Origin: Bugula neritina
Lineage: Eukaryota > Bryozoa > Gymnolaemata > Cheilostomatida > Bugulidae
Length of the DNA stretch: 64,000 nt
Assembly: GCA_964035545.1 (NCBI GenBank)
Contig: OZ037773.1
Location: 877,751-941,750, forward strand
Direction: 5' to 3'
Positions within the stretch are counted from its first letter, which is position 1, and every line of letters starts with the position of its first letter. Position numbers and translations under genes: made by a program. The notes beneath the pieces were generated by a model, which made no database searches, was not told the origin of the DNA, and worked only from the letters and a program-made list of their open reading frames with translations. Shown here in pieces: positions 3,385 to 61,694 of this stretch.

Positions 3385-3833
3385 ACTACCTAAGTGCAGT
3401 GTGGTATATTAAGAGTGTTGCCATTAGCAAATCTTACGGAATCATATGGGCGCCATTATGCCGAGATTGGTACCGCGAGTTTATATAAGTTATAAAGGAA
3501 AAATTTTGCCACTTTTGTTATTTTATTTTTTTTCTATTTTATGTGTACTATTTTTTTAATTTTGTTTATTGGTAAAGTTTTTAAACACATTTTTAATGCA
3601 CATAAAATTAAAAGAAAAATTAAAACTCAATCATGCACATAAATACAAAGCTATAAAGTTAAAGCTTCGCTGTGATTACAATGTGAATATGAATTGAATA
3701 ATGCTTGCAATAACCATTATACACAAAATACGCTACAGTTGCTATAAATGTAAGACTAGTTAATTGGATGCAAATAGGCACGGTAATACTACTTAATTTA
3801 TGTTATTTTTGAATTTTGTAGTAAATATTTGGC

Positions 3834-3835
<2 letters not shown>
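3385..3835 (+). repeat. Left arm of a long inverted repeat
   Basis: This ~450-bp sequence is repeated in inverted orientation at 6928-7366 with moderate divergence. Shared landmarks include GCAGTGTGGTATATTAAGAG near the outer end, GGTACCGCGAGTTTATATAA, and the inner end running into (TA)n. It could be a long terminal inverted repeat of one element or two copies of a short element facing each other. No open frame is shared. Confidence 0.7.
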
Positions 3836-3913
<78 letters not shown>

Positions 3914-4341
3914 ATATATATTATTATATATATATATATTATTATATATATATATATATATATGAATATATAATATTATTATATATATATATATATATAT
4001 AATATATAATATTATTATATGTATATATATATATATTATATATAATATCATTATATATATATAATGTACATAATTTAATATATAATATAATAATATATTA
4101 TATATGATATTATTATATATATATAATATATAATATAATAATATATTTTATATATTATATATGATATTATTATATATATAATATATAATATAATAATATA
4201 TTTTATATATTATATATGATATTATTATATATATATGATATAATATATAATATAATATTATAATATAATAATATATTATATATGATATTATATATATAAT
4301 ATATATAATATAATATATAATATAATAATATATAATATATT

Positions 4342-4385
<44 letters not shown>

Positions 4386-4705
4386 ATATTATTATACTTG
4401 TATAATATATTATATATATAATATAATATAATATATATTAATATATAATATATTATTATAATATATATATATATTATAAATAATATAATATAATAATATA
4501 TATTATATGATATTATATATATATAATATATATATAATATAATATATATATAATATAATATATAATATAATAATATATTATATTATTATATTATATAATA
4601 TATTATTATAATATATATATTATATATAATATTAATATACTTATATAATATATATATATATAATATAACAATATATAATATAAAAATGTATAATATATTA
4701 TTATA

Positions 4706-9846: not shown

Positions 9847-10593
9847 TCATTGGGTGAGCTCTGACTCTTGTAGTGAGCGTGATCTGTGTCGAGCCTGTCG
9901 GGCACGTAGCCTCCGCTTCAGTCGCCCTACTGAGTCCTTCAGCTGGTATAGGCCTGTCGTCGTATCCAGCAGGTCAAGGGCAAGTTGTGTAAACTCGGCT
10001 TGTAGTTTTAAAAGCCACTCTTCTACAGTAGCCAATCGGCTGGGTCCTGGTGAGGTTGTAGCAGTCGTTTCCTCTGATTCGGGGGTATTACTAGGGTTGA
10101 AAGAGGTAGTGGACGGGGCCTCAACCATAGGAGACTTATGGCGGGCAGATAACAGTAGTACTTGGAACCCTGACGCTAGTGCGGCCAGGGTGATAGCCTT
10201 CTTGATGAATGGCTTGATGGTGTCTAGGTACTGGGGGAAACTGTCCTCATCTATGATATGGCCCTCTCCGGCAAAACAGCTCAGTTTATGGACGATCACA
10301 GGGTACGGGTATACATCGTGAAATCCGCATATGCAAAAATGTAGTAGAAATTGTGCGTCTACATGCAGACGCAGGGAGCGGTGTGACGGGCACTCCTCGA
10401 AACAGACCTGACAGGTCCGGTGGGGGTCCACTTGGTCCCCAGGCTTCCTCAATCCTCCTTTCTGTCGTGGGTGACACCCAGCAATGTCGTCGACGAAGCA
10501 CCACGGGTAGGCCATTTTCCATCACTGGTTCTTCCTCCATGGGTAGAGGGGTTGGTTGGTCCCTTGACCGGGAGGTGGTCACTCGAGTGTTAT
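9847..10593 (-). pseudogene. E1 ORF3, main exon: C2H2/C2HC finger protein
   Basis: The reading frame starts at a splice acceptor (pyrimidine-rich, ending TTTCAG) at 10594 and continues the micro-exon at 10884-10860. The product has a basic/proline-rich segment, then CQVC with 12 residues to H (C2H2 finger), CIC with 12 residues to H and a later C (C2HC finger), a conserved EDSFPQYLDTIKPF segment, a linker, and a C-terminal coiled coil ending in the basic stretch LKRRLRARQARHRSR. One extra C near 10436-10441 shifts the frame between the N-terminal part and the fingers. The second histidine of finger 1 is Q here but H in E7. Function is unknown; nucleic-acid binding is inferred. Confidence 0.75.
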
Positions 10594-10859
10594 CTGAAAG
10601 AGTAGCAGTGTTAAAGATTATACACTGAGGTACCGTCGGCGTGTACAGCCTGACAGGTACTCTGTTCAGTTCCACTCGTGAGATTCAGGCTAATGAATAG
10701 TTGATCGAGAACACACTCGCTATGGCAGATTATTTAAAATCTAAGTCGACGTGTGTTCCCACCACTGTGTTTCATTATCGAATCTCCAGCTCGCTAACTG
10801 GCGTAGCTAGAGCTGACTGATGTAGTCTAGTTCCCGTACCAACAACATAACTAACTCAC
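10594..10859 (-). other. E1 ORF3 intron (predicted, 266 nt)
   Basis: It begins GTGAGT after the micro-exon and ends CTCTTTCAG, with TTTAAC as a branch-point candidate just upstream. Removal joins phase-1 ends in frame. E7 has the same two splice sites, with a mobile element inserted between them. Confidence 0.7.
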
Positions 10860-10884
10860 CCTTCGATCCAGAATAGTAAGACAT
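10860..10884 (-). CDS. E1 ORF3 micro-exon (25 nt, eight codons)
   Basis: ATG opens a 25-nt exon coding MSYYSGSK and ending one base into the ninth codon, at AAGG followed by GTGAGT. The length and phase equal those of the ORF3 first exon in E2, E4, E5 and E6, although the sequence differs. In E7 the ATG has become ATA. Prediction rests on splice-site quality and cross-lineage conservation; there is no transcript evidence. Confidence 0.65.
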
Positions 10885-12805: not shown

Positions 12806-13753
12806 TTACCGGCGGCCCGCAGGAGGTGGGAACATCTGCGGGCCGTGGTAGTTTAACCCTTGTTGGAGCTGAGGACAGTTCTTCTGGAAATGTCCCGACC
12901 TTCCGCATCCCCAGCAGAAGTTGTGCCCCGTGCCTGGTGATTGTGCCTGCGGCCCGCAAGGCTCACGGGCAGTATATAACTGGCTTGGAGGAGCTAATGT
13001 GGCGACCAGTTTGGCTAGCATGTCAGTCATCTGCGCGACTTTCGATGCTACCGTCATCTGGGTCACATTAGCTACCGCGGAGGGTTCTGCATTTGGTTCA
13101 GTATGAGCAATAGTGTGCTCCGTGGCCACCTGGCGGGAGGCCACGCGGTTGCGGTGCATGTGAGTTGCCAAGAGGTAGGCTTCTCCCACCGCGAGTGCAT
13201 CCTCGACCGTGGCGACTCCCCTCACTTGGAACTGATGGTGGAGCCCCAAGTCGTTGATGGACTGCACGAAGGCATCATAAGTATACCTCTCACGGTTCGC
13301 TTGAGGCAGATCGCGGAACGGGATCTGCGCCAGTGTCATCACCATGGTAGCGTGCTCCTGCAGTGGCGTGTGAGGATCACGCCGCAGCCTTTGTAGGCGG
13401 GCCTGCGCATCTATGGCGGAGATACCAAAACGGGCCCGCAGAGAAGTGAAGATCTCGTCTATGTCAGGTCCCACTCCGTATGGCTTAGCCTTGTTCATCA
13501 GCGCCATCCTAAGTTTGAGCAACGCCACCCTTGGTGGCCACCGTGCAACTTCCATCACATCTTGGAATTCCTGGATAAATTGCTCTACGGCTTCCTCGCC
13601 TGTGAAGGTGGGCGCCTTCAGCCGGTATCTGTCCTCACCGGGCTCTCTAGGAAATCTCACTTCTTCTCACACTACTGGTTCCACAGGTGTATCAACATTA
13701 TCTTCCTCACCTTCATTCAGTGGAATGGGTACCTCCGTACCGTCTTCTGCCAT
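12806..13753 (-). pseudogene. E1 Gag with CCHC zinc knuckle
   Basis: The start codon at 13753 lies 17 bp past the primer site. A TGA at 13669-13667 interrupts the N-terminus; after it 284 codons are open. The capsid-like part contains RYRLKAPTFTGEEAVEQFI, shared with all the Gags here, and a later SINDLGLHHQ segment. Near the C-terminus there is a zinc knuckle, CWGCGRSGHFQKNC (C-x2-C-x4-H-x4-C), which in retroelements binds genomic RNA. The E4, E5 and E6 Gags lack this knuckle. The family is clear; the copy is broken by the stop. Confidence 0.88.
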
Positions 13754-20868: not shown

Positions 20869-20893
20869 ATGATTTCAAATGCCGGGTTCCTAG
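20869..20893 (+). CDS. E2 ORF3 micro-exon (25 nt)
   Basis: ATG codes MISNAGFL and stops one base into codon nine, at CTAG followed by GTGAGC. It lies 9 bp after the pol stop. Position, length and phase match E4, E5 and E6. Confidence 0.6.
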
Positions 20894-20946
20894 GTGAGCT
20901 TGCTCTGACCTAACATTCTCACTCATGGAATCAGGTCTAACATCAG
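20894..20946 (+). other. E2 ORF3 mini-intron (predicted, 53 nt)
   Basis: GTGAGC...CTAACATCAG. The branch-like CTAAC and the AG align with the E5 and E6 introns. An in-frame ATG (MES) inside it gives an alternative unspliced start for ORF3. Confidence 0.6.
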
Positions 20947-25926: not shown

Positions 25927-26816
25927 ATGACTGACACTGTGACTTATTTGGAGGGTAAGTCCATTAAGGAAATTCTGTTATTTAGTTAGAATTTAGCCTA
26001 GTAGCCGAATTCAGTCTCACTTCAGCATAATGATCAAGTTGGTCTCCTGGCGACTTGGAGTTGACTGATCACTGAGATGGTTTATGGATACCAGGAGATT
26101 CTTGACTATCCAACTCAGTCGAAGTGTGGTACTGACAAGATGAAGCCTCCTACAAGAAAGTGTGTGATTTAGTACCGCTTACAGTTGAATCCATGTACTC
26201 TGTTGCAGGTGAGGCTCCGCCTGCATCCCCCGGGTTGCAGGCTTTGCTAGATGCCCGACCCCAAACTGGGAAATGCATTTTTTTCCACCATGAAGCAGGA
26301 GAGCGTGCACGTGCTACAGCATTTCACAGTGACCTTGTGCCCCTGTAGCGTCCACAATTTTTATAGACGCTATCCTCTGTCATCAAAGGAATCAGCAGTG
26401 CCATGTCGGCCACTTAGTGGAGGTAGATCAAGACTCCTATGCGCAATTCCAAGACTTGATTCTCCTCATGTATCCTCCCCATTGAGACGTGAGTCATTGC
26501 TGCAGGGGTTTCACAGTTCCTGGCCAGTGATACCAAGTGACTCAGATGCCACTGGTTCCAACTATGACCCTGTAGTCTATGTGTTTGATGAAGTACAGAC
26601 GTGTTCTCTTTGCGTGATGGTAACCCGTGCTGGTCGGTCAGCAGAAGAGTCTACTCAGCCACTTCCCTCTCAGTCCTCCCATACCCTTGCATTGCTCCGG
26701 AAGAGAAGGGAGAAATCAAAAACTACGACAGTCCCTAATGACACAATAGATGCTGAGATATGTACTAACTTAGAGAAACTACAACGATGCTGCACACAAC
26801 TGTGTAAGGAGCAGTG
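25927..26816 (+). pseudogene. E3 ORF3 remnant
   Basis: A possible micro-exon at 25927-25954 starts ATG, codes nine residues and ends GAGG before GTAAGT, phase 1, as in the other lineages though one codon longer. A TTCAG acceptor at 26014 keeps phase but the frame soon meets a stop. Finger 2 is recognisable as LQHFTVTLCPC, then after a frameshift ILCHQRNQQCHVGHL and VDQDSYAQFQDLI. A C-terminal helix with LLRKRREKSK precedes the end at 26816. The protein is broken, but its presence shows that ORF3 is old. Confidence 0.65.
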
Positions 26817-29444: not shown

Positions 29445-31130
29445 CTGTGAACTCGGTATTAGTGTCCATACTCAATGTTCTTGGTAAGGTTGGAGCTAAT
29501 TGTAAAGTACTTCTGCCCTTGGCGATGTCAGCGTAAGAAAAGGCTGGGCATCGTTTCTGAGGCACGAGGTCGGAATTATTTGTTTTATGCGCATTAATTC
29601 CTCCCACTACTCCGCCCTCGCAAAAGTTGATATTTGCGTGGGGTTCACAACTCCAACATTTCTCCGTACGGGTTTCCCCTAGACTTCCATGGGTGCCGCT
29701 TCTAATGCAGTCACATACGAAGTCTTTTAAATATGGTGGGGGTCTCCTCGTACGCTGTCCCCGTTCTAGGGGGGTGACACGCTCGCCGGTTCATTAGCAG
29801 GGGCCTCTAATGGCAATTCTACTTCACCGTTAACGGTCACTTCTTCCTGTTCTCCGGATGGAGCCCCTCCCTCCGTGGGGGTTTGCACTTCCGGAACCGG
29901 CTCGGTTTCTGGAAGTGATGGAATCAGACTTGGCGGCGGCGGACGCGCCTCTGTTGGCAAAAGCTGTCGCTCTTCTTTCACCAAGTCTTCTTCCCGCGGT
30001 ATGACCACTTCATATTCAGGTCCATGCCGCCGTCGCCCACGCGTTGTTGTCTGCCTTCTAGGCTCTAACAACGGGGGGCTTCTCCCACTGCGTCGGGGCT
30101 AGCCCAATACGGTTTCAAGCGAGACTCATTCTGGATAGACACCTGTCCTGAGCGTTCAATCTTGTACGTATGATTGGGCATAGCCTCGACGATCACGTAG
30201 GGTCCCACGAACTTAGGCTGTAACTTAGCTGCCTGTCCGCGACGCCTACGGTAATTGACCATCCACACCTAATCCCCCGTCTGATAGAGGGGTGGTTCCT
30301 CGGAATCTTCATGTAGCACCTTCCACTGCTGTTCGCGCAGTATTTCGTGTGCGGCCTTCATCCGTTCCACTAGTTCACTGGCATGCGCATGAACCGAGTT
30401 GTCTTGCTCTGGAACGTGGTAGGTGAGATGGTCAAGGACACGAGTCTCTTTCCCGAGCATCAAGAGGTTTGGGGTTTCACAAGTACTGATGTGTGGGGTG
30501 CTACGGTATGCACGCATGACTTGCGGCAACACCGTGTATCATTCCTCCAGACCGCGTCCAAGGAGGAGGCTCCGGAGCGCATCACCTAGCATCCGGTTGT
30601 TGCGCTCCACCACCCCGTTACCTTGAGGGTGGTAGGGGGTGGTCCGGCTCTGATTTACTCCCCAGAGGCAGCAAAGGTCGCTCATCAGTTGAGACTGGAA
30701 TTGAGCGCCTTGATCAGAGTGTATCTGTTCGGGGAGACCGAAATAACAGAATACATGTTGGTCTAGCACCCGGGCCACGGTTGGAACCGACGCATCTGGG
30801 ATGGTCAGAGCGTCCGCCCACCTCATGAAGTGGTCGGTCAATACTAAGATCCAACTATTGCCTCTGGGGGTTGGAGGCATAGATCCGACCAGGTCTACAG
30901 CGACTACTTGCCAAGGCCTTCCAGCATATAGCCTCCGCCGTCCCGCTTCGCCAGGAAGACGGCCATGCTTACTGGCCTGGCAGATTTCACTCTGAGTCGG
31001 ACGTCCCGCTCCATCTGGGGCCAATACCACCGGAGTCGTAGTTTGGAGATCACTCTCTTGACTCCTGCGTGAGCCTGTTTGTGAGCGTCCCAAATCAGCT
31101 CACGGTGGATGGCAGTGGGGCAGACCACCC
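29430..31130 (-). pseudogene. E4 integrase and Pol tail
   Basis: The zinc domain is split by a frameshift (DAHKQAHAG, then a damaged cysteine pair). The core keeps AVDLVGSMPPTP, IHSDQGAQFQSQLM and GNGVVERNN, so D, D and E are present. The C-terminal SH3-like domain reads LQPKFVGPYVIVE, with the GPY motif. A TAG replaces one codon just before the VWMVNY segment. The tail includes EYEVVIPREEDL, a proline-rich linker, CWSCEPHANINFCEGG and SYADIAKGR. No chromodomain is seen. Confidence 0.85.
29445..29469 (-). CDS. E4 ORF3 micro-exon (25 nt)
   Basis: ATG codes MDTNTEFT and ends ACAG before GTAAGC. It is nearly identical to the E5 exon. Confidence 0.6.
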
Positions 31131-33988: not shown

Positions 33989-34855
33989 TCAGTTTCGGCC
34001 CGCGGGGAGGAAGGGCGTCCGCGGGCCGTGACAGTTTAACGCCCCCTGGTGTTGGGGTCGTCCTGGCTGTCTATGGTCTTGACCAGCACTAGTCCAGCCC
34101 GGCCCCGCAGGTGCTGGGGGCAACCGCGGTTCCTGACCGGGGCCAGCGCTGGCAAGAATCGTTACCAGCTGTCCCAACATCTCTACCATACGGTCTACTT
34201 CGGCTTCCACAGGGGGAGCTTCGGGGCCCGCCGTAGCTCTGGCAGCACTGACTCCAACTGCTGGTGGGTTCCCTTGCGCTCGGTGCATTTGGGTAGCCAA
34301 CAGATAAGCTTCTCCAGCCTTTAAGGCATCCTCTATCGTGGTGATTCCTTTAGCTCGTAGTTGGTGGTGTAGGCCCAGGTCGTTCAGTGACTGGACGAAA
34401 GCGTCGTAGGTGTAACGCTCTTGGTGTTGTGCTGGTAGGTCACCATATGCAATTTGTGCCAGCTTCTTCACCATCGCGGCATGCTCTTGCAGCGAGGTCA
34501 GCGGGGTGCGGCACAATCTCTGTAACCGGGTCCTGGCGTCTATTGCGGAGATGCCAAAGCGGCCCCGCAACGCAGCCAATATCCCGTCTACGTCCGTTCC
34601 CATTCCGTACGGCTTGGCTTGCTCCGCCAACGCTCTCCACAACTGGATAAGGGCCACTCTATGCGGCCATTGTGCAATATCCATGACTTCTCTAGACTCC
34701 TGTATAAACTGTTCGACATCTTCTGACCCAGTAAAGGTGGGGGCTTTCAAGCGATATCGATAAGCTTCTTCTCCCACATGATTCACAGGAATAACATCAT
34801 TTCTTCGCTCACCTTCTACTGGGGGTGGTTGCATTCTAGCATTTTCAGTCTCCAT
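33989..34855 (-). CDS. E4 Gag (288 aa, open)
   Basis: The frame opens 15 bp after the primer site and is uninterrupted. The capsid-like region contains YRLKAPTFTGSEDVEQFIQE, FGISAIDARTRLQRL and SLNDLGLHHQLRAKGITTIE. The C-terminus is rich in G, P, Q and basic residues and ends LNCHGPR...PAGRN. This matches the sequence after the zinc knuckle of the E1 Gag, but the CCHC knuckle is absent. It would form the particle and bind RNA through basic residues (inferred). pol follows in a different frame. E5 has an equally long homologue. Confidence 0.85.
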   Translation of the reverse strand: METENARMQPPPVEGERRNDVIPVNHVGEEAYRYRLKAPTFTGSEDVEQFIQESREVMDIAQWPHRVALIQLWRALAEQAKPYGMGTDVDGILAALRGRFGISAIDARTRLQRLCRTPLTSLQEHAAMVKKLAQIAYGDLPAQHQERYTYDAFVQSLNDLGLHHQLRAKGITTIEDALKAGEAYLLATQMHRAQGNPPAVGVSAARATAGPEAPPVEAEVDRMVEMLGQLVTILASAGPGQEPRLPPAPAGPGWTSAGQDHRQPGRPQHQGALNCHGPRTPFLPAGRN

Positions 34856-38977: not shown

Positions 38978-39844
38978 ATGGAGACTGAAAATGCTAGAAT
39001 GCAACCACCCCCAGTAGAAGGTGAGCGTAGAAATGATGTTAATCCTGTGAATTGTGAGGGAGAAGAAGCTTATAGATATTGCTTGAAAGCTCCCACCTTT
39101 ACTGGGTCAGAAGATGTCGAACAGTTTATACAAGAATTCAGAGAGGTAATGGAGATTGCTCAATGGCCGCATAGAGTGGCCCCTATCCAATTGCGGAGAG
39201 CGTTGACGGAGCAAGCCAAGCCGTACGGAGTGGGAACGGACGTAAACGGAATACTGACTGCGCTGCGGGCCCGTTTTGGCATCTCCGCAATAGACGCTAG
39301 AACCAAGCTACAGAGATTGTGCCGCACCCCGCGGACCTCGCTGCAAGAACATGCCGCGACGGTGAAGAAGCTGGCACAGATTGCGTATGGTGACCTACCA
39401 GCGCAACACCAAAAGCGTTACACATACAACGCCTTTGTCCAGTCACTAAACGACCTGGGCCTACACCATCAACTTCGAGCTAAAGGGATAACCAGAATAG
39501 AGGATGCCCTGAAGGCTGGAGAAGCTTACCTGTTGGCTACCCAAATGCATCGAGCACAACGGAACCCACCAGTAGTTGGAGTCAGTGCTGCCAGGGCCAC
39601 GACAGGCCCCGAAGCCCCCCCGCTGGAAGCCGAAGTGGACCGTATGGTAGAGATGCTGGGACAGCTGGTAACAATTCTGGCCGGCGCTGGCCCCGGTCAG
39701 GCCCTGCGGTTGCCCCCAACACCTGTGGGGCAGGGCTGGAGTAGTGCTGGTCAGGACCATGGACAGAAAGGACGACCCAAATACCAGGGGGCGTTAAACT
39801 GTCACGGCCCGCGGAGGCTCTCCCTCCCCGCGGGCCACAACTGA
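38978..39844 (+). CDS. E5 Gag (288 aa, open)
   Basis: Same length as the E4 Gag and collinear with it, 14 bp after the primer site. It contains LKAPTFTGSEDVEQFIQEFR, FGISAIDARTKLQRL and SLNDLGLHHQLRAKGITRIE. The C-terminus keeps LNCHGPRR...PAGHN and lacks a CCHC knuckle. It ends in TGA. The protease frame downstream is +1 relative to gag, through a 9-G run and a later 2-base deletion that together cancel relative to E4. Confidence 0.87.
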   Translation: METENARMQPPPVEGERRNDVNPVNCEGEEAYRYCLKAPTFTGSEDVEQFIQEFREVMEIAQWPHRVAPIQLRRALTEQAKPYGVGTDVNGILTALRARFGISAIDARTKLQRLCRTPRTSLQEHAATVKKLAQIAYGDLPAQHQKRYTYNAFVQSLNDLGLHHQLRAKGITRIEDALKAGEAYLLATQMHRAQRNPPVVGVSAARATTGPEAPPLEAEVDRMVEMLGQLVTILAGAGPGQALRLPPTPVGQGWSSAGQDHGQKGRPKYQGALNCHGPRRLSLPAGHN

Positions 39845-44376: not shown

Positions 44377-44401
44377 ATGGACATTAATACCGAGTTCACA
44401 G
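44377..44401 (+). CDS. E5 ORF3 micro-exon (25 nt)
   Basis: ATG codes MDINTEFT and ends ACAG before GTAAGC, phase 1. The ATG is in the Pol frame. Confidence 0.62.
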
Positions 44402-44454
44402 GTAAGCCAGTATGAGTCTTGTATCCTTATCCATGGAAACGGGCTCGATGCCAG
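44402..44454 (+). other. E5 ORF3 mini-intron (predicted, 53 nt)
   Basis: GTAAGC...GATGCCAG. Removal joins the micro-exon in frame with the ORF3 body. An in-frame ATG (MET) inside it offers an unspliced start. Confidence 0.6.
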
Positions 44455-51590: not shown

Positions 51591-52385
51591 ATGACAGAGC
51601 ACACAACGAAGCACCCGGGAGGTAAGCCAGCCAATTTCTTGCATATGGAGGAGGTGTACAGAGATAAACTGACCGCTCCCACCTTCACGGGTGTAGAAGA
51701 TGTAGAGCAATTCATTGAAGAATTCCACGATGTAGCAAATGTCGCTCAATGGCCGCCACAAGTAGCCCTCCTCAAGCTGCGGGAAGTATTGACGGAGCGC
51801 GCTAGACCGTTTGGACAGGGACGGAGCGTGGCGGAAATATTCACTACACTACGGAGCCATTTTGGCACCCCCACTCTGGAACCCAGAGCCCGTCTACAAG
51901 TGCTACACCAGGCGGAAGGCACTCCGCTCCGCAACCACGTTGCCTTAGTGAAGAGGCTGGCGCGGAGCGCGTACAGCGACCTGCCAGAAGCACACCGACG
52001 GAACTTTACTCTCATTGACTTTATGCAATCCCTAAAAGATGTGGGTCTTTGCCATCAACTACAGGCAAAGGGAGTGACCACTCTAGAAAGTGCCCTACAA
52101 GTCGGAGAAGACTACCTCCAGGCCGAACAGTTACATACAGGGAAACCAAAAAGCACACAAGTCACCGCGGAGATAGCCCAATCACTCGGAGGGAAGATGG
52201 GCCAGCTGAGCACCAGGCTAAAACAGATGGCGAAGACTCTTACCAATGGCGGGCCCCCTAGCCGAGGACAACAGGGAGAGACCTCGGGGAAGACTACGCA
52301 GAGTAAGAGCAACAACAAGCCAGGGCCTCCCCGCTCCAGAGACCCCCAACCCAGAAAGAGGCCCCACGAGCAAAAGAGAGAATAA
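51591..52385 (+). CDS. E6 Gag (264 aa, open)
   Basis: It contains DKLTAPTFTGVEDVEQFIEE and a SLKDVGLCHQLQAKGVTTLE segment homologous to the other Gags. The C-terminus is a lysine/arginine-rich tail (RSRDPQPRKRPHEQKRE) with no CCHC knuckle, so RNA binding would rest on basic residues. It ends TAA. The following pol frame is in register and open from the next codon, so termination readthrough could give Gag-Pol. Start chosen as the first ATG after the primer site. Confidence 0.88.
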   Translation: MTEHTTKHPGGKPANFLHMEEVYRDKLTAPTFTGVEDVEQFIEEFHDVANVAQWPPQVALLKLREVLTERARPFGQGRSVAEIFTTLRSHFGTPTLEPRARLQVLHQAEGTPLRNHVALVKRLARSAYSDLPEAHRRNFTLIDFMQSLKDVGLCHQLQAKGVTTLESALQVGEDYLQAEQLHTGKPKSTQVTAEIAQSLGGKMGQLSTRLKQMAKTLTNGGPPSRGQQGETSGKTTQSKSNNKPGPPRSRDPQPRKRPHEQKRE

Positions 52386-56914: not shown

Positions 56915-56939
56915 ATGAGTATAAATACCGAGTTCTCGG
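56915..56939 (+). CDS. E6 ORF3 micro-exon (25 nt)
   Basis: ATG codes MSINTEFS and ends TCGG before GTAAGC, phase 1. It lies 30 bp after the pol stop. Confidence 0.65.
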
Positions 56940-56991
56940 GTAAGCTTGCTTAGATCTAACACTCCACTAATGGAAATAGATCTCACCTCAG
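56940..56991 (+). other. E6 ORF3 mini-intron (predicted, 52 nt)
   Basis: GTAAGC, then TCTAACACTCC with a branch-like CTAAC, ending TCTCACCTCAG. Removal joins phase-1 ends in frame. An in-frame ATG (MEI) inside it offers an alternative start. Confidence 0.65.
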
Positions 56992-58048
56992 TCAACTCTG
57001 ATTTAATCGATCTGATTGAATCACAGTTACTGGAGACAGAGTCACACGTGAATGACGACGAGAACATAGTAATGGCGGACGATCTACTAGATCTGGAGCT
57101 TGATACTATGTCTCTCAGTCAGTTTACACGTTCTGACACAGTCTCTCGAGTGCCGTATAAAAAGATGCATGACTCTCAGACTAGTAACAGTCGATTGTCA
57201 TCAGAATTATGCTGTAAAGATCAAACTCGATCTGACAATAATTCTGCTCTTTTAGACGCCACTCGCTCTCCTGACTACGGAGATATGCCACCATTAGAAC
57301 TGGCCTGGAACAGTGAGACACCTCCTACATCCCTACCAGACGTGCTACTCAAACAACATAGCTGGGTCGCACCAGAGACAGAGAAACTGATTCAACTACA
57401 CTGCGGCCATGACGGATACACCACCTGCAGGCTGTGTCAGCAGCACTTCTCCACCCATCGCCGTTTGCGCGTCCACGTACCGCAACACTTCCTAACTACT
57501 CTCTGTCCCTGTGGTGAGTATAGTTACCACAGGGACTACATCCTCAGACATCAGCGCACTATGGACTGCCATGTGGGACACTTGTACGATGTAGACAAAT
57601 ACAACTTCCCCACCTTTCTCAATCTGATCAAACCTTTCATTAAGGATCTCCCCCGCTTCGAACGACTCAAACACGGATTCCCCTCACTTCGCATCATCAC
57701 TCATGGACCGTGTCCAAGACCCCCCCAGACATAAGAAACCTACCAAGCCACCTCACTCTCCTCCCGCACAGACTATACCTCGTCCCTCCGCCCTGCCTCG
57801 AGTCCTATTTCACAGAGTCGAGATACCCCTCCCCCACTTCTATGCAGCCCTCTTCTAAACGCCGATGGAAATCCTCCTCCCCAAAACGGCAGGTCCCTAC
57901 AGCTCGCAATATAAAAGAAGTCGAGCTCCGTATGTATGATTTAGAAGCGGAGATTCAACGGCTAACCCCCAGAGTCGCCGCAGCCGCCTCCGAGATGAAG
58001 ACCTTTAAAGCTTCCGTGGCCCTCCTCAAACGGGGCAACCACGACTGA
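56992..58048 (+). pseudogene. E6 ORF3, main exon: finger and coiled-coil protein
   Basis: The acidic N-terminus contains ADDLLDLELDTMSL, which resembles a leucine-rich export signal or acidic activation segment (inference). Finger 1 is CRLC, 12 residues, H-x3-H. Finger 2 is CPC, 12 residues, H-x5-C. A VDKYNFPTFLNLIKPFI segment and a proline linker follow. A 7-C run near 57718-57727 shifts the frame, and the coiled coil (NIKEVELRMYDLEAEIQRL, then SVALLKRG) ends at 58048. There is no signal peptide or membrane helix. Role is unknown. It is the best reference copy for the family. Confidence 0.85.
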
Positions 58049-59642: not shown

Positions 59643-60666
59643 CTGAAAGAGCTAACAGTGTTAAGGATTATACACTGAAGTACCGCCGGCATGTACAGCC
59701 TGACAGGTGCTATGTTCAGTTAAACACTCGCGAGATTCAGGCTAATGAATAGTTGATCGAGAACACACTCGCTATGGCAGATTATTAGAATCTAAGTCGA
59801 CGTGTGTTCCCACCACTGTGTTTCATTATCGAATCTTTAGCTTGCTAACTGGTATAGTTAGACACAGGATAGTTAAGGGCATCCTCACTAAGAATATCAT
59901 AAATTTCTCTCAAAATGTAGTTTGGGTTCTTGAATAATACTACTCTGCGGGTGGCATGTGTGTTGCCTACTTGCAATTGTTTAGCCTAAGATCAAACTAC
60001 AACCAATAAGCAGCAACCTTCATTAGGGCTGCGTTATCTATCAACATTCCATTATAGGCGCTACGAAAACAAAGTACCAAGCAAGCTATTCATTATAGCC
60101 TGCCAGCTAGCAAGCCTGTAATTAGCATGTACGCGCCAATATCTTCTCATCCCTACGTGCTCATTGAAGCGTGAAGCACTGCCCGCTGCTAATTTACTAT
60201 GAAAAAACATAGCATTTTCAGTGTATAAATCACCAATTTGTGGGCAATCTAGAAGAGTTATTGGAAAAAGAAAAAAGTTACCCTGGAGAAATATCTCAGG
60301 ATTCCAGCAGTGCAATTTCTATTTAGATATCATGCTTTGCTGCTGAGATATTTTAATGGTACTGAAAAGTCAGCTTTTCAGGCAAAATTGGCCAAAATTG
60401 GGCAGCTTTTTGTCTATAACTTTGCAAAAAAAATTAAAATTGAAATTTCCAAAAAGTTACCCTGGAGAAAAAGAAGATCTACAGCATAGTTTTTAAATTT
60501 TGACTCTAGCACAATTAGGTGAGATTTTATTTTACTGGTACTGAATTCTTATATGATTACAATGCAAACCTCAGCAAAGCAGTTGCAGCTAAAAGGTTGC
60601 CTTTAACTATCCTGTGGAGCTGACTGAAGTAGTCTAGTTCCCGTACCAAAAACATAACTAACTCAC
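59643..60666 (-). other. E7 ORF3 intron with inserted element
   Basis: The donor GTGAGT (60666) and acceptor TTTCAG (59643) equal those of E1, where the intron is 266 nt. The 754-bp inverted-repeat element accounts for the extra length. The micro-exon ATG at the E1-equivalent position is ATA. Confidence 0.65.
59863..60616 (-). mobile_element. Short inverted-repeat element, copy 2 (754 bp)
   Basis: The ends CACAGGATAGTTAA are inverted, with GA on both sides (59861-59862 and 60617-60618). E1 carries the uninterrupted site with a single GA (TAGAGCTGACTG), which confirms the insertion. It matches 5764-6402 in reverse orientation and has no transposase. Confidence 0.85.
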
Positions 60667-61694
60667 CCTTCGATCCAGAATATTAAAATATTTTGATTGA
60701 GAGTGGTACTGATTATTGTTTTGTGGCATGCTACTCTTGACTGCATCAAAGTAGGAAAAGACCGGGCAGCGTGGTTGTGAAGCGTGACTAGGACTTTTTG
60801 CTTCCGGCGGAGGAATCTCATCCGTGATTCCGCCAAGGCAAAAGTTGATATTTGCGTGGTGTTCAAAACTCCCACGTTTCTTTGCCTGTCTTCCCATACG
60901 ATACCTAGCTAGACTTTCATAACTGCCGCTTGTAGCGCGGTCATATACAAAGTCTCCGAGGTACGCTGGAGGTTGCTTAGTGAGCGGTCCTGGAGATATC
61001 GTCACTGTGGGAGGCGGTGTGCTCACCCGTGGATTGTTATGTCTCACGGGTGGTGTTTCCAGCCTGTTTGTGACGGTCGTTCCTACGTTGGTGTCTCTGT
61101 ACGGAGCCCCTCCCACGGGGGGTTATTGCACTTCCGGACTCGTTTCTGGTTCCGGAAGTGGTGATGGCAGGCCTGACGTTGGGGCGATGGGCGCGTTTCC
61201 AAAGACGGAAGTGGCCTTTCCTGCCTCGTCAAGTTTTCCTGGAGAGTCATGGGCGCGTTTCTGGCCAGGTCGACAGTCTTCGCTTGCCAGGACCTTCTAG
61301 CACAATGCGTCTGCCGCCCCGTTTCACCAGGGAGAGGGCTATGCTTGTCGGTCTGGCAGATTTCGCACTGTCTCACTCTGCGCCGTATGTCCGGCTGCAT
61401 GTTGGGCCGGTACCACCGGAGTTGTAACTTGGTGACCACCCCCTGGACTCCCGCCTGAGTCTGCTGGTGGATGTCCCGTATCAACTCCCGGCAGATGGCA
61501 GCGGGGCAGACTATCCTCTCCCTTTCTGGCTGTCTGTTGTTGGCGGCCAAAGTCATGGTCAGCAGGCCATCTGGCCCGATCCGCAGGGAGTTCCAATGTT
61601 GACAGTACAGCCGTAACTCGGCGCATCCTTGTCCCCGATGTCTACCACTGGGTCGTCGCCCATCCTGTTTTGCTCGGTACACATCAGCTACCAC
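60658..61694 (-). pseudogene. E7 integrase zinc domain and Pol tail
   Basis: 61694-61083 is open with VADVYRAKQDGRRPS, the zinc domain (DIHQQTQAG, CEIC) and SWQAKTVDLARNAPM. It then jumps past the catalytic core to the tail stretch TRQERPLPSLE, the same junction as in E1. In another frame, 61116-60658 holds the rest of the tail: KQPPAYLGDFVYDRATSGSY, INFCLGGI and FSYFDAVKS. It has no catalytic capacity. Confidence 0.82.

Follow-up and report, generated by a model that had tools for sequence, protein, structure and literature searches.

The closest functional model for the gene described here is CERV of Cer1, an LTR retrotransposon of C. elegans; CERV is an accessory protein that is made from a spliced mRNA and is required for the export of unspliced RNA (PMC10309623). 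It resembles ORF3, the gene that follows pol in the elements of this study, in that its spliced mRNA begins in gag exons, in that the protein carries a possible zinc finger, a nuclear localisation signal and a leucine zipper, and in that unspliced RNA must also exit the nucleus (PMC10309623). It differs in being expressed from a five-exon mRNA, and the excerpted account of Cer1 describes neither a local post-pol micro-exon nor a folded intron, and no chromosomal copies that lack the intron (PMC10309623). In gypsy-type endogenous retroviruses of Drosophila, env is likewise a post-pol gene expressed from a spliced subgenomic RNA, whose first exon, depending on the subclade, either lies upstream of gag and encodes a short peptide or is a site in gag itself (PMC12992720). 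Env is a fusion glycoprotein, whereas ORF3 encodes a zinc-finger/coiled-coil-like protein and, unlike env, appears to have a further first exon that is local and followed by a small intron of its own. LTR elements of bdelloid rotifers carry varied, modular, captured ORF3s after pol, typically with spliced messages, but of other types: esterase, exonuclease, coiled-coil, transmembrane and env (PMC5408684). The main text of that paper contains no word beginning with "intron" or "zinc". Penelope-like elements resemble the present ones in keeping spliceosomal introns in their genomic copies, but they are not LTR elements and their intron retention has been attributed to their mode of replication (PMC3846280). 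In the elements described here, in contrast to Penelope, spliced copies are also found.

LTR elements are expected to lose introns that are spliced from the RNA they copy. Here, hundreds of copies retain the intron, in a few it has been removed precisely and one preserves the trace of a further, longer splice, and the chromosomal copies thus form a fossil record of splice forms that can be read without RNA data. The system offers a natural experiment on how a retroelement can keep its own genome unspliced.

The window, a 64,000-nucleotide stretch of Bugula neritina DNA, contains several LTR retrotransposons (E1 to E6, and a seventh element, E7, recognised in addition) with ORF3 located downstream of integrase. 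E6 is flanked by a pair of LTRs of 275 nt that are 96.7% identical, and Pfam places in E5, within one ORF, a protease (just below the cut-off), RT and RNase H, followed by H2C2 and rve integrase. LTRs around gag and pol, with the order protease-RT-RNase H-integrase, characterise Ty3/gypsy elements and were found here, and the elements look like Ty3/gypsy (Metaviridae-type) LTR retrotransposons. The focal junction lies in E6, with counterparts in E2, E4 and E5:

56915..56939, plus strand: E6 micro-exon, 25 nt, phase 1, checked letter by letter
56940..56991, plus strand: E6 mini-intron, 52 nt, with a GTAAGC donor at 56940, a CTCAG end and the acceptor CTCACCTCAG
56970..56972, plus strand: in-frame ATG within the E6 intron, a possible unspliced start
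56992..57734, plus strand: E6 ORF3 exon 2 body with the zinc-finger region, from the ORF list, genome copies and metagenome relatives
20869..20893, plus strand: E2 micro-exon, 25 nt; intron 20894-20946, 53 nt
44377..44401, plus strand: E5 micro-exon, 25 nt; intron 44402-44454, 53 nt; Pol frame open into the micro-exon
29445..29469, minus strand: E4 micro-exon, 25 nt; donor GT kept

A sequence-only reading of this DNA had proposed for E2, E5 and E6 a 25-nt phase-1 first exon followed by a 52- to 53-nt intron and joined in frame to ORF3. Each was confirmed letter by letter, the joined frame of E6 reading MSINTEFS from exon 1 and VNSDLIDLIE from exon 2. That reading requires correction for E4, where the acceptor AG has become GG; L070 is the other mini-intron copy in which the acceptor is lost. 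The ORF3 of E6 terminates earlier than its full-length relatives (~365 aa), in which the coiled coil lies in the same ORF as the rest of the protein, unlike in E6. By eye, a coiled-coil stretch resembling the full-length ORF3 C-terminus is visible in E6 at 57848-58046, out of the ORF3 frame.

E1-like elements have the same layout as the mini-intron type with an intron of ~265 nt, and the following features were placed in the window:

10860..10884, minus strand: E1 micro-exon, 25 nt, phase 1, MSYYSGSK; exact junction copies of this type exist
10594..10859, minus strand: E1 intron, 266 nt, apparently a conserved folded RNA, 3' end CTCTTTCAG
9847..10593, minus strand: E1 ORF3 exon 2, from the sequence and the ORF; frameshift before the zinc finger (by eye)
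25927..25954, plus strand: E3 exon candidate, 28 nt, phase 1; intron 25955-26208, 254 nt
59643..60691, minus strand: decayed exon 1 of E7, its ATG mutated, and an E1-type intron interrupted by a large insertion

The 25-nt phase-1 exon and 266-nt intron claimed for E1 were found exactly as described, letter by letter, and the 28-nt phase-1 candidate of E3 is present in the sequence. Open frames of 280 aa occur in relatives of E1.

The strongest evidence for splicing comes from genomic copies in which exon 1 and exon 2 are already joined. In the 216 Mb of genome searched (295 contigs, the window being on contig C9), the unspliced E1-type pattern had 272 matches at up to 3 mismatches and none in the read-backwards control. 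The joined E1-type pattern, with the 25-nt exon, was present at 8 places, 6 with 0 and 2 with 1 mismatch, the control giving 1 match at the 3-mismatch limit; a third subfamily with a 22-nt exon contributed 3 joined copies (1 with 0 and 2 with 1 mismatch; control 0). All 11 junction copies have the pol end upstream, and in alignments to intron-bearing relatives, covering L137-L142, L143 and L144 for the 25-nt exon and L150-L152, exactly the intron is missing. The frame is open across the junction in 10 of the 11 as far as fetched (~30 residues), L150 having a stop. These are exact chromosomal copies of the exon 1-exon 2 joint, and RNA spliced at the micro-exon was therefore reverse-transcribed. 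As recorded in chromosomal DNA, they show that the 22- to 25-nt phase-1 micro-exon is spliced in the E1-like lineage, and they suggest at least 6 separate intron losses. The loss count and the grouping were based on pairwise identities because the one flank tree held 14 of the 28 loci.

Exon 1 is most likely translated, since its ATG, its frame and its length class (22, 25 or 28 nt) are kept. In L132-L136, exon 2 has no Met within the ~50 residues read. In L147, a natural intron-less copy, an ORF3 of 268 aa is read from the exon-1 ATG, and between that ATG and the zinc finger there is no further in-frame Met. Two other features of this lineage were considered and rejected. An in-frame TAG seemingly conserved in the ORF3 of the 61% family is read AGT AGG in the ORF3 frame of L149 (by eye), and its apparent conservation probably arose because the E1 query is frameshifted. 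Translation of the intron itself, raised by an open frame through the E1-type intron (P0117, P0123), was discarded as this is not the exon-1 frame (by eye).

The ORF3 acceptor seems to be served by a second first exon at the start of gag, for which four candidates lie in the window:

51591..51621, plus strand: E6 gag start, phase-1 candidate first exon, 31 nt, then GTAAGC
38978..39020, plus strand: E5 gag start, phase-1 candidate first exon, 43 nt, then GTGAGC
34813..34855, minus strand: E4 gag start, phase-1 candidate first exon, 43 nt, then GTGAGC
13711..13753, minus strand: E1 gag start, phase-1 candidate first exon, 43 nt, MAEDGTEVPIPLNE, then GTGAGG; an exon of this kind is fused to ORF3 in L148 and P0122

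Phase-1 GTRAG donors thus follow 43, 43, 43 and 31 nt of gag in E1, E4, E5 and E6, which have three different gag N-termini among them. A joined gag-ORF3 pattern was found at one genome site (L148/L149) with one mismatch and none in the control; genome searches with the E5- and E6-type patterns found no such junction. At L148/L149 an LTR and a primer-binding-site-like stretch precede 43 nt of gag, which run into ORF3 exon 2 and the remainder of ORF3, and an LTR closes the copy; the gag exon is in phase 1 and joined to the same ORF3 acceptor as the micro-exon. The flanking LTRs share 98.6% identity across 352 columns, and no target-site duplication is evident there by eye. The metagenome protein P0122 reads as a gag start fused to ORF3 exon 2 as in L148, so that one genomic copy and one metagenome protein form the basis of this join. 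L148/L149 is most readily understood as a DNA copy of a subgenomic RNA that carried the long splice. On these DNA copies, the micro-exon is one of two alternative first exons, the gag start being the other. Spliced accessory genes of the env/cerv type are recognised by a 5' exon joined to an acceptor before a 3' gene, and this arrangement was found in the DNA record, as opposed to RNA, of the E1-like lineage.

For the mini-intron lineage we infer splicing from conservation, because no junction copy was found for the 52-nt intron: the exon-1-plus-donor pattern had 269 genome matches at up to 2 mismatches (read-backwards control 0), and the genome search for the joined pattern gave 2 matches, neither with ORF3 nearby. 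If joined, 86 of the 92 mini-intron copies with exon 1 would match that pattern at the same limit. Both pattern counts, 269 for the mini-intron and 272 for the E1 type, are whole counts. Conservation was measured in 90 loci taken from the 146 E6-like matches listed; addition of 4 window elements gave 94, and removal of L001, which is E6 itself, left 93 rows. All 93 have the exon-1 ATG and 92 an A at its -3 position; 92 keep the donor GT and 92 the +5 G, 91 end the intron in AG and 89 retain the internal ATG. When changes were counted on a tree of representatives (34, from 97% clusters), none fell on the exon-1 ATG, the GT or the +5 G, the acceptor A changed twice and the acceptor G not at all, and the three sites of the internal ATG changed 1, 0 and 3 times. 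Ten of the 52 intron sites are unchanged across the 34 representatives, and these include 4 of the 5 sites formed by GT, +5 G, A and G (hypergeometric P = 0.0035). The sequence-only reading had held that free drift at GT and AG with a conserved internal ATG would speak against splicing; the opposite pattern was seen. Its further claim, that conserved length and phase reflect real splicing, is borne out in E1-like relatives by the 11 exact junction copies, and for the focal mini-intron it is drawn from the conservation of ATG, GT, +5 G and AG. The focal 52-nt intron looks selected, judged from these substitution patterns, without a recorded spliced copy, and splicing at the micro-exon probably takes place in this lineage too. 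As that reading had also cautioned, unspliced RNA may allow a start at the internal in-frame ATG in this lineage. The peptide that begins at this ATG, MExxLT, opens many of the examined metagenome relatives of the mini-intron lineage; such starts look like gene calls on unspliced DNA. Host introns in two alpha-tubulin-like genes (L145, L146) measure 139, 98, 119 and 97 nt, all longer than 52, and their donors (GTAAGT, GTGAGG, GTAAGT and GTAAGT) resemble those of the elements.

That the junction copies represent ancestral absence of the intron, or its deletion from DNA, and not splicing might be argued from how few they are, 8 beside 272 unspliced E1-type matches plus the 3 of the 22-nt type. 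We give this next to no credence, for the joins fall precisely at GT and AG in each of three subfamilies, whose exons measure 25, 25 and 22 nt, the intron-less copies are closest to different intron-bearing copies, the structure of the intron is conserved across subfamilies, and the long join of L148/L149, which lies between two LTRs, is equally exact. Splicing followed by reverse transcription is thus the preferred reading of the E1-like copies. A more serious challenge concerns the mini-intron lineage (E2, E4, E5 and E6), where the intron could be a relic and the micro-exon a short upstream ORF, with ORF3 translated from the internal ATG of unspliced RNA or produced by the gag-exon splice alone. 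Retention of the internal ATG in all but four of the copies, zero intron-lost copies against 269 matches to the unspliced pattern, the MExxLT that begins many metagenome gene calls and the loss of AG in E4 would fit such a relic, which we nevertheless consider unlikely. An upstream ORF does not account for the near-invariance of the exon-1 ATG, its -3 A, the GT and the +5 G, as the donor T (+2) and the +5 G would be synonymous in it, yet neither changed in the 34 representatives. The -3 position of the internal ATG is C in 51, T in 40 and G in 2 of the 93 copies, which makes for a weak start context. The corresponding exon of the E1-like elements is, moreover, recorded as spliced. Splicing at a conserved micro-exon remains the preferred reading for the focal lineage.

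The E1-type intron shows signs of a conserved structure. A script located the intron in 19 of 22 E1-type sequences, and L118 was added afterwards; L122 and L130 have no intron within the fetched stretch, and E7 was left out of the resulting alignment A1 (19 rows). Three introns folded singly gave z-scores of -3.6, -3.0 and -2.2. The shared fold has 53 pairs, 11 of them with changes on both sides, a number reached by 1 of 500 shuffles, and its covariation was 0.174 against 0.031-0.063 when slid, with 0 of 500 shuffles reaching 0.174. In this fold 96.4% of cells pair, a figure that is favoured because the structure was derived from the same alignment. Further pair types numbered 32 against a shuffle mean of 34.4, with 498 of 500 shuffles at or above the observed value. 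Helix 1 would cover the 5' splice site; it has 0 covarying pairs and is missing from the minimum-energy fold of E1 alone. Taken as a whole, the covariation indicates a conserved RNA fold in the ~265-nt E1-like intron. Within the window, good scores for the intron model were confined to E1 and E7, the latter matched in two pieces; the model matched neither the E3 intron nor the mini-intron elements of the window. The two pieces at E7 (59643-60666, minus strand) are model matches on either side of the insertion that splits its E1-type intron. A search of the whole window against 4227 Rfam families returned no match at the gathering score.

Taken together, we consider it highly probable that ORF3 is an accessory gene whose one acceptor is spliced to two alternative phase-1 first exons. 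Spliceosomal splicing would join this shared acceptor either to the local 22- to 28-nt micro-exon just after pol or to the first 31-43 nt of gag. The presence of both junctions as E1-like chromosomal copies is best explained by reverse transcription of spliced RNA, and we infer the same two-exon scheme for the 52- to 53-nt mini-intron lineage of the focal locus. The gag-exon splice would yield a capped subgenomic ORF3 mRNA, like that of env in gypsy relatives, and the local splice, on pol-carrying RNA, might allow ORF3 to be made by reinitiation after the nearby Pol stop. In most E6- and E2-type copies such a stop precedes exon 1 by 3 codons; it is missing in E5-like copies (e.g. 44377-44415). 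The proposal that the E5 micro-exon is in the Pol frame, so that splicing would fuse Pol to ORF3, fared well in a larger sample: in 22 of 24 E5-like copies the Pol frame runs without a stop through at least 108 codons before exon 1, and the Pol-ORF3 fusion that the local splice would produce in E5-like elements is therefore a subfamily trait. As the intron is kept in most copies found, unspliced RNA would be the main template. The folded E1-like intron may hold splicing inefficient, or may aid export or packaging of unspliced RNA, and ORF3, with its finger region, Arg/Ser-rich stretch and coiled coil, may act on it; a role of ORF3 in Rev/CERV-like control of unspliced RNA is a conjecture by analogy. 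Were the folded intron and ORF3 to cooperate, another branch of retroelements would have its own equivalent of Rev/RRE or CERV.

How far the intron itself is functional admits several answers. It may be an RNA export, retention or packaging element (of CTE, RRE or CERV type) with ORF3 as its protein partner, as the covarying fold within the intron, the finger region, Arg/Ser-rich stretch (by eye) and coiled coil of ORF3, and the need for spliced-mRNA-derived CERV in the export of unspliced Cer1 RNA (PMC10309623) would lead one to think. This is possible though doubtful, since the mini-intron is too small for the fold, good model scores are confined to E1 and E7, and 11 intron-less copies exist, some perhaps copied onward. 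A still more elaborate form, a self-made switch of the lentiviral Rev/RRE kind with two competing phase-1 first exons on one acceptor, a folded control intron, feedback by ORF3 and recombination as a cassette, is speculative and, to our mind, unlikely as a whole. HUSH represses long intronless transgenes, and introns counteract it even when unspliced (PMC8770142), so that the intron could mainly protect the element from HUSH-like silencing of intronless transcripts, the coding of ORF3 being secondary. Its retention in most copies found is in keeping with this; we rate such protection as quite improbable, given that HUSH has been described in human cells and that the conserved ATG and phase of exon 1 would be unneeded for protection alone.

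Full-length ORF3 relatives of ~268-366 aa have a C2H2-like finger region and a C-terminal coiled coil (Pfam below cut-off), with a second C2H2-like finger and, in some, an Arg/Ser-rich stretch, both seen by eye. In four window ORF3s and three relatives, all Pfam matches stayed below threshold, most of them being to C2H2 and coiled coil. A structure model of the relative P0010 had high confidence at about residues 121-240 and fair confidence in the C-terminal helix; its matches to solved structures were weak, the best being C2H2 fingers (E 0.66). ORF3 as a retroviral-type Env was rejected, as Pfam found no envelope domain and the weak matches are C2H2-like. Of 170 proteins related to ORF3, from metagenome-type sources, 147 were examined and 23 left out. 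A viral contig scan yielded 7 stretches, none an ORF3 relative, and word searches of the open-access literature brought up no paper recognisable as dealing with this ORF3 or its micro-exon.

Two mosaic copies bear on the movement of ORF3 between elements. The pol end of L150 (G000:C6:4478600-4479060) matches E6 at 97% identity along 334 nt, after which comes the ORF3 module of another subfamily; in L138 (G000:C2:14376090-14376890), 559 columns of the pol end show 90% identity to E5, and the ORF3 that follows is of the E1 type. Given these mosaics, ORF3 together with its intron appears to have been exchanged as a cassette near the pol end. Four small contigs of the searched genome (C16, C42, C139 and C235 of G000) contain tubulin and elongation-factor matches with many in-frame TAA and TAG codons, perhaps ciliate contamination, and a long AT-rich repeat tract occupies 3788-4700 of the window.
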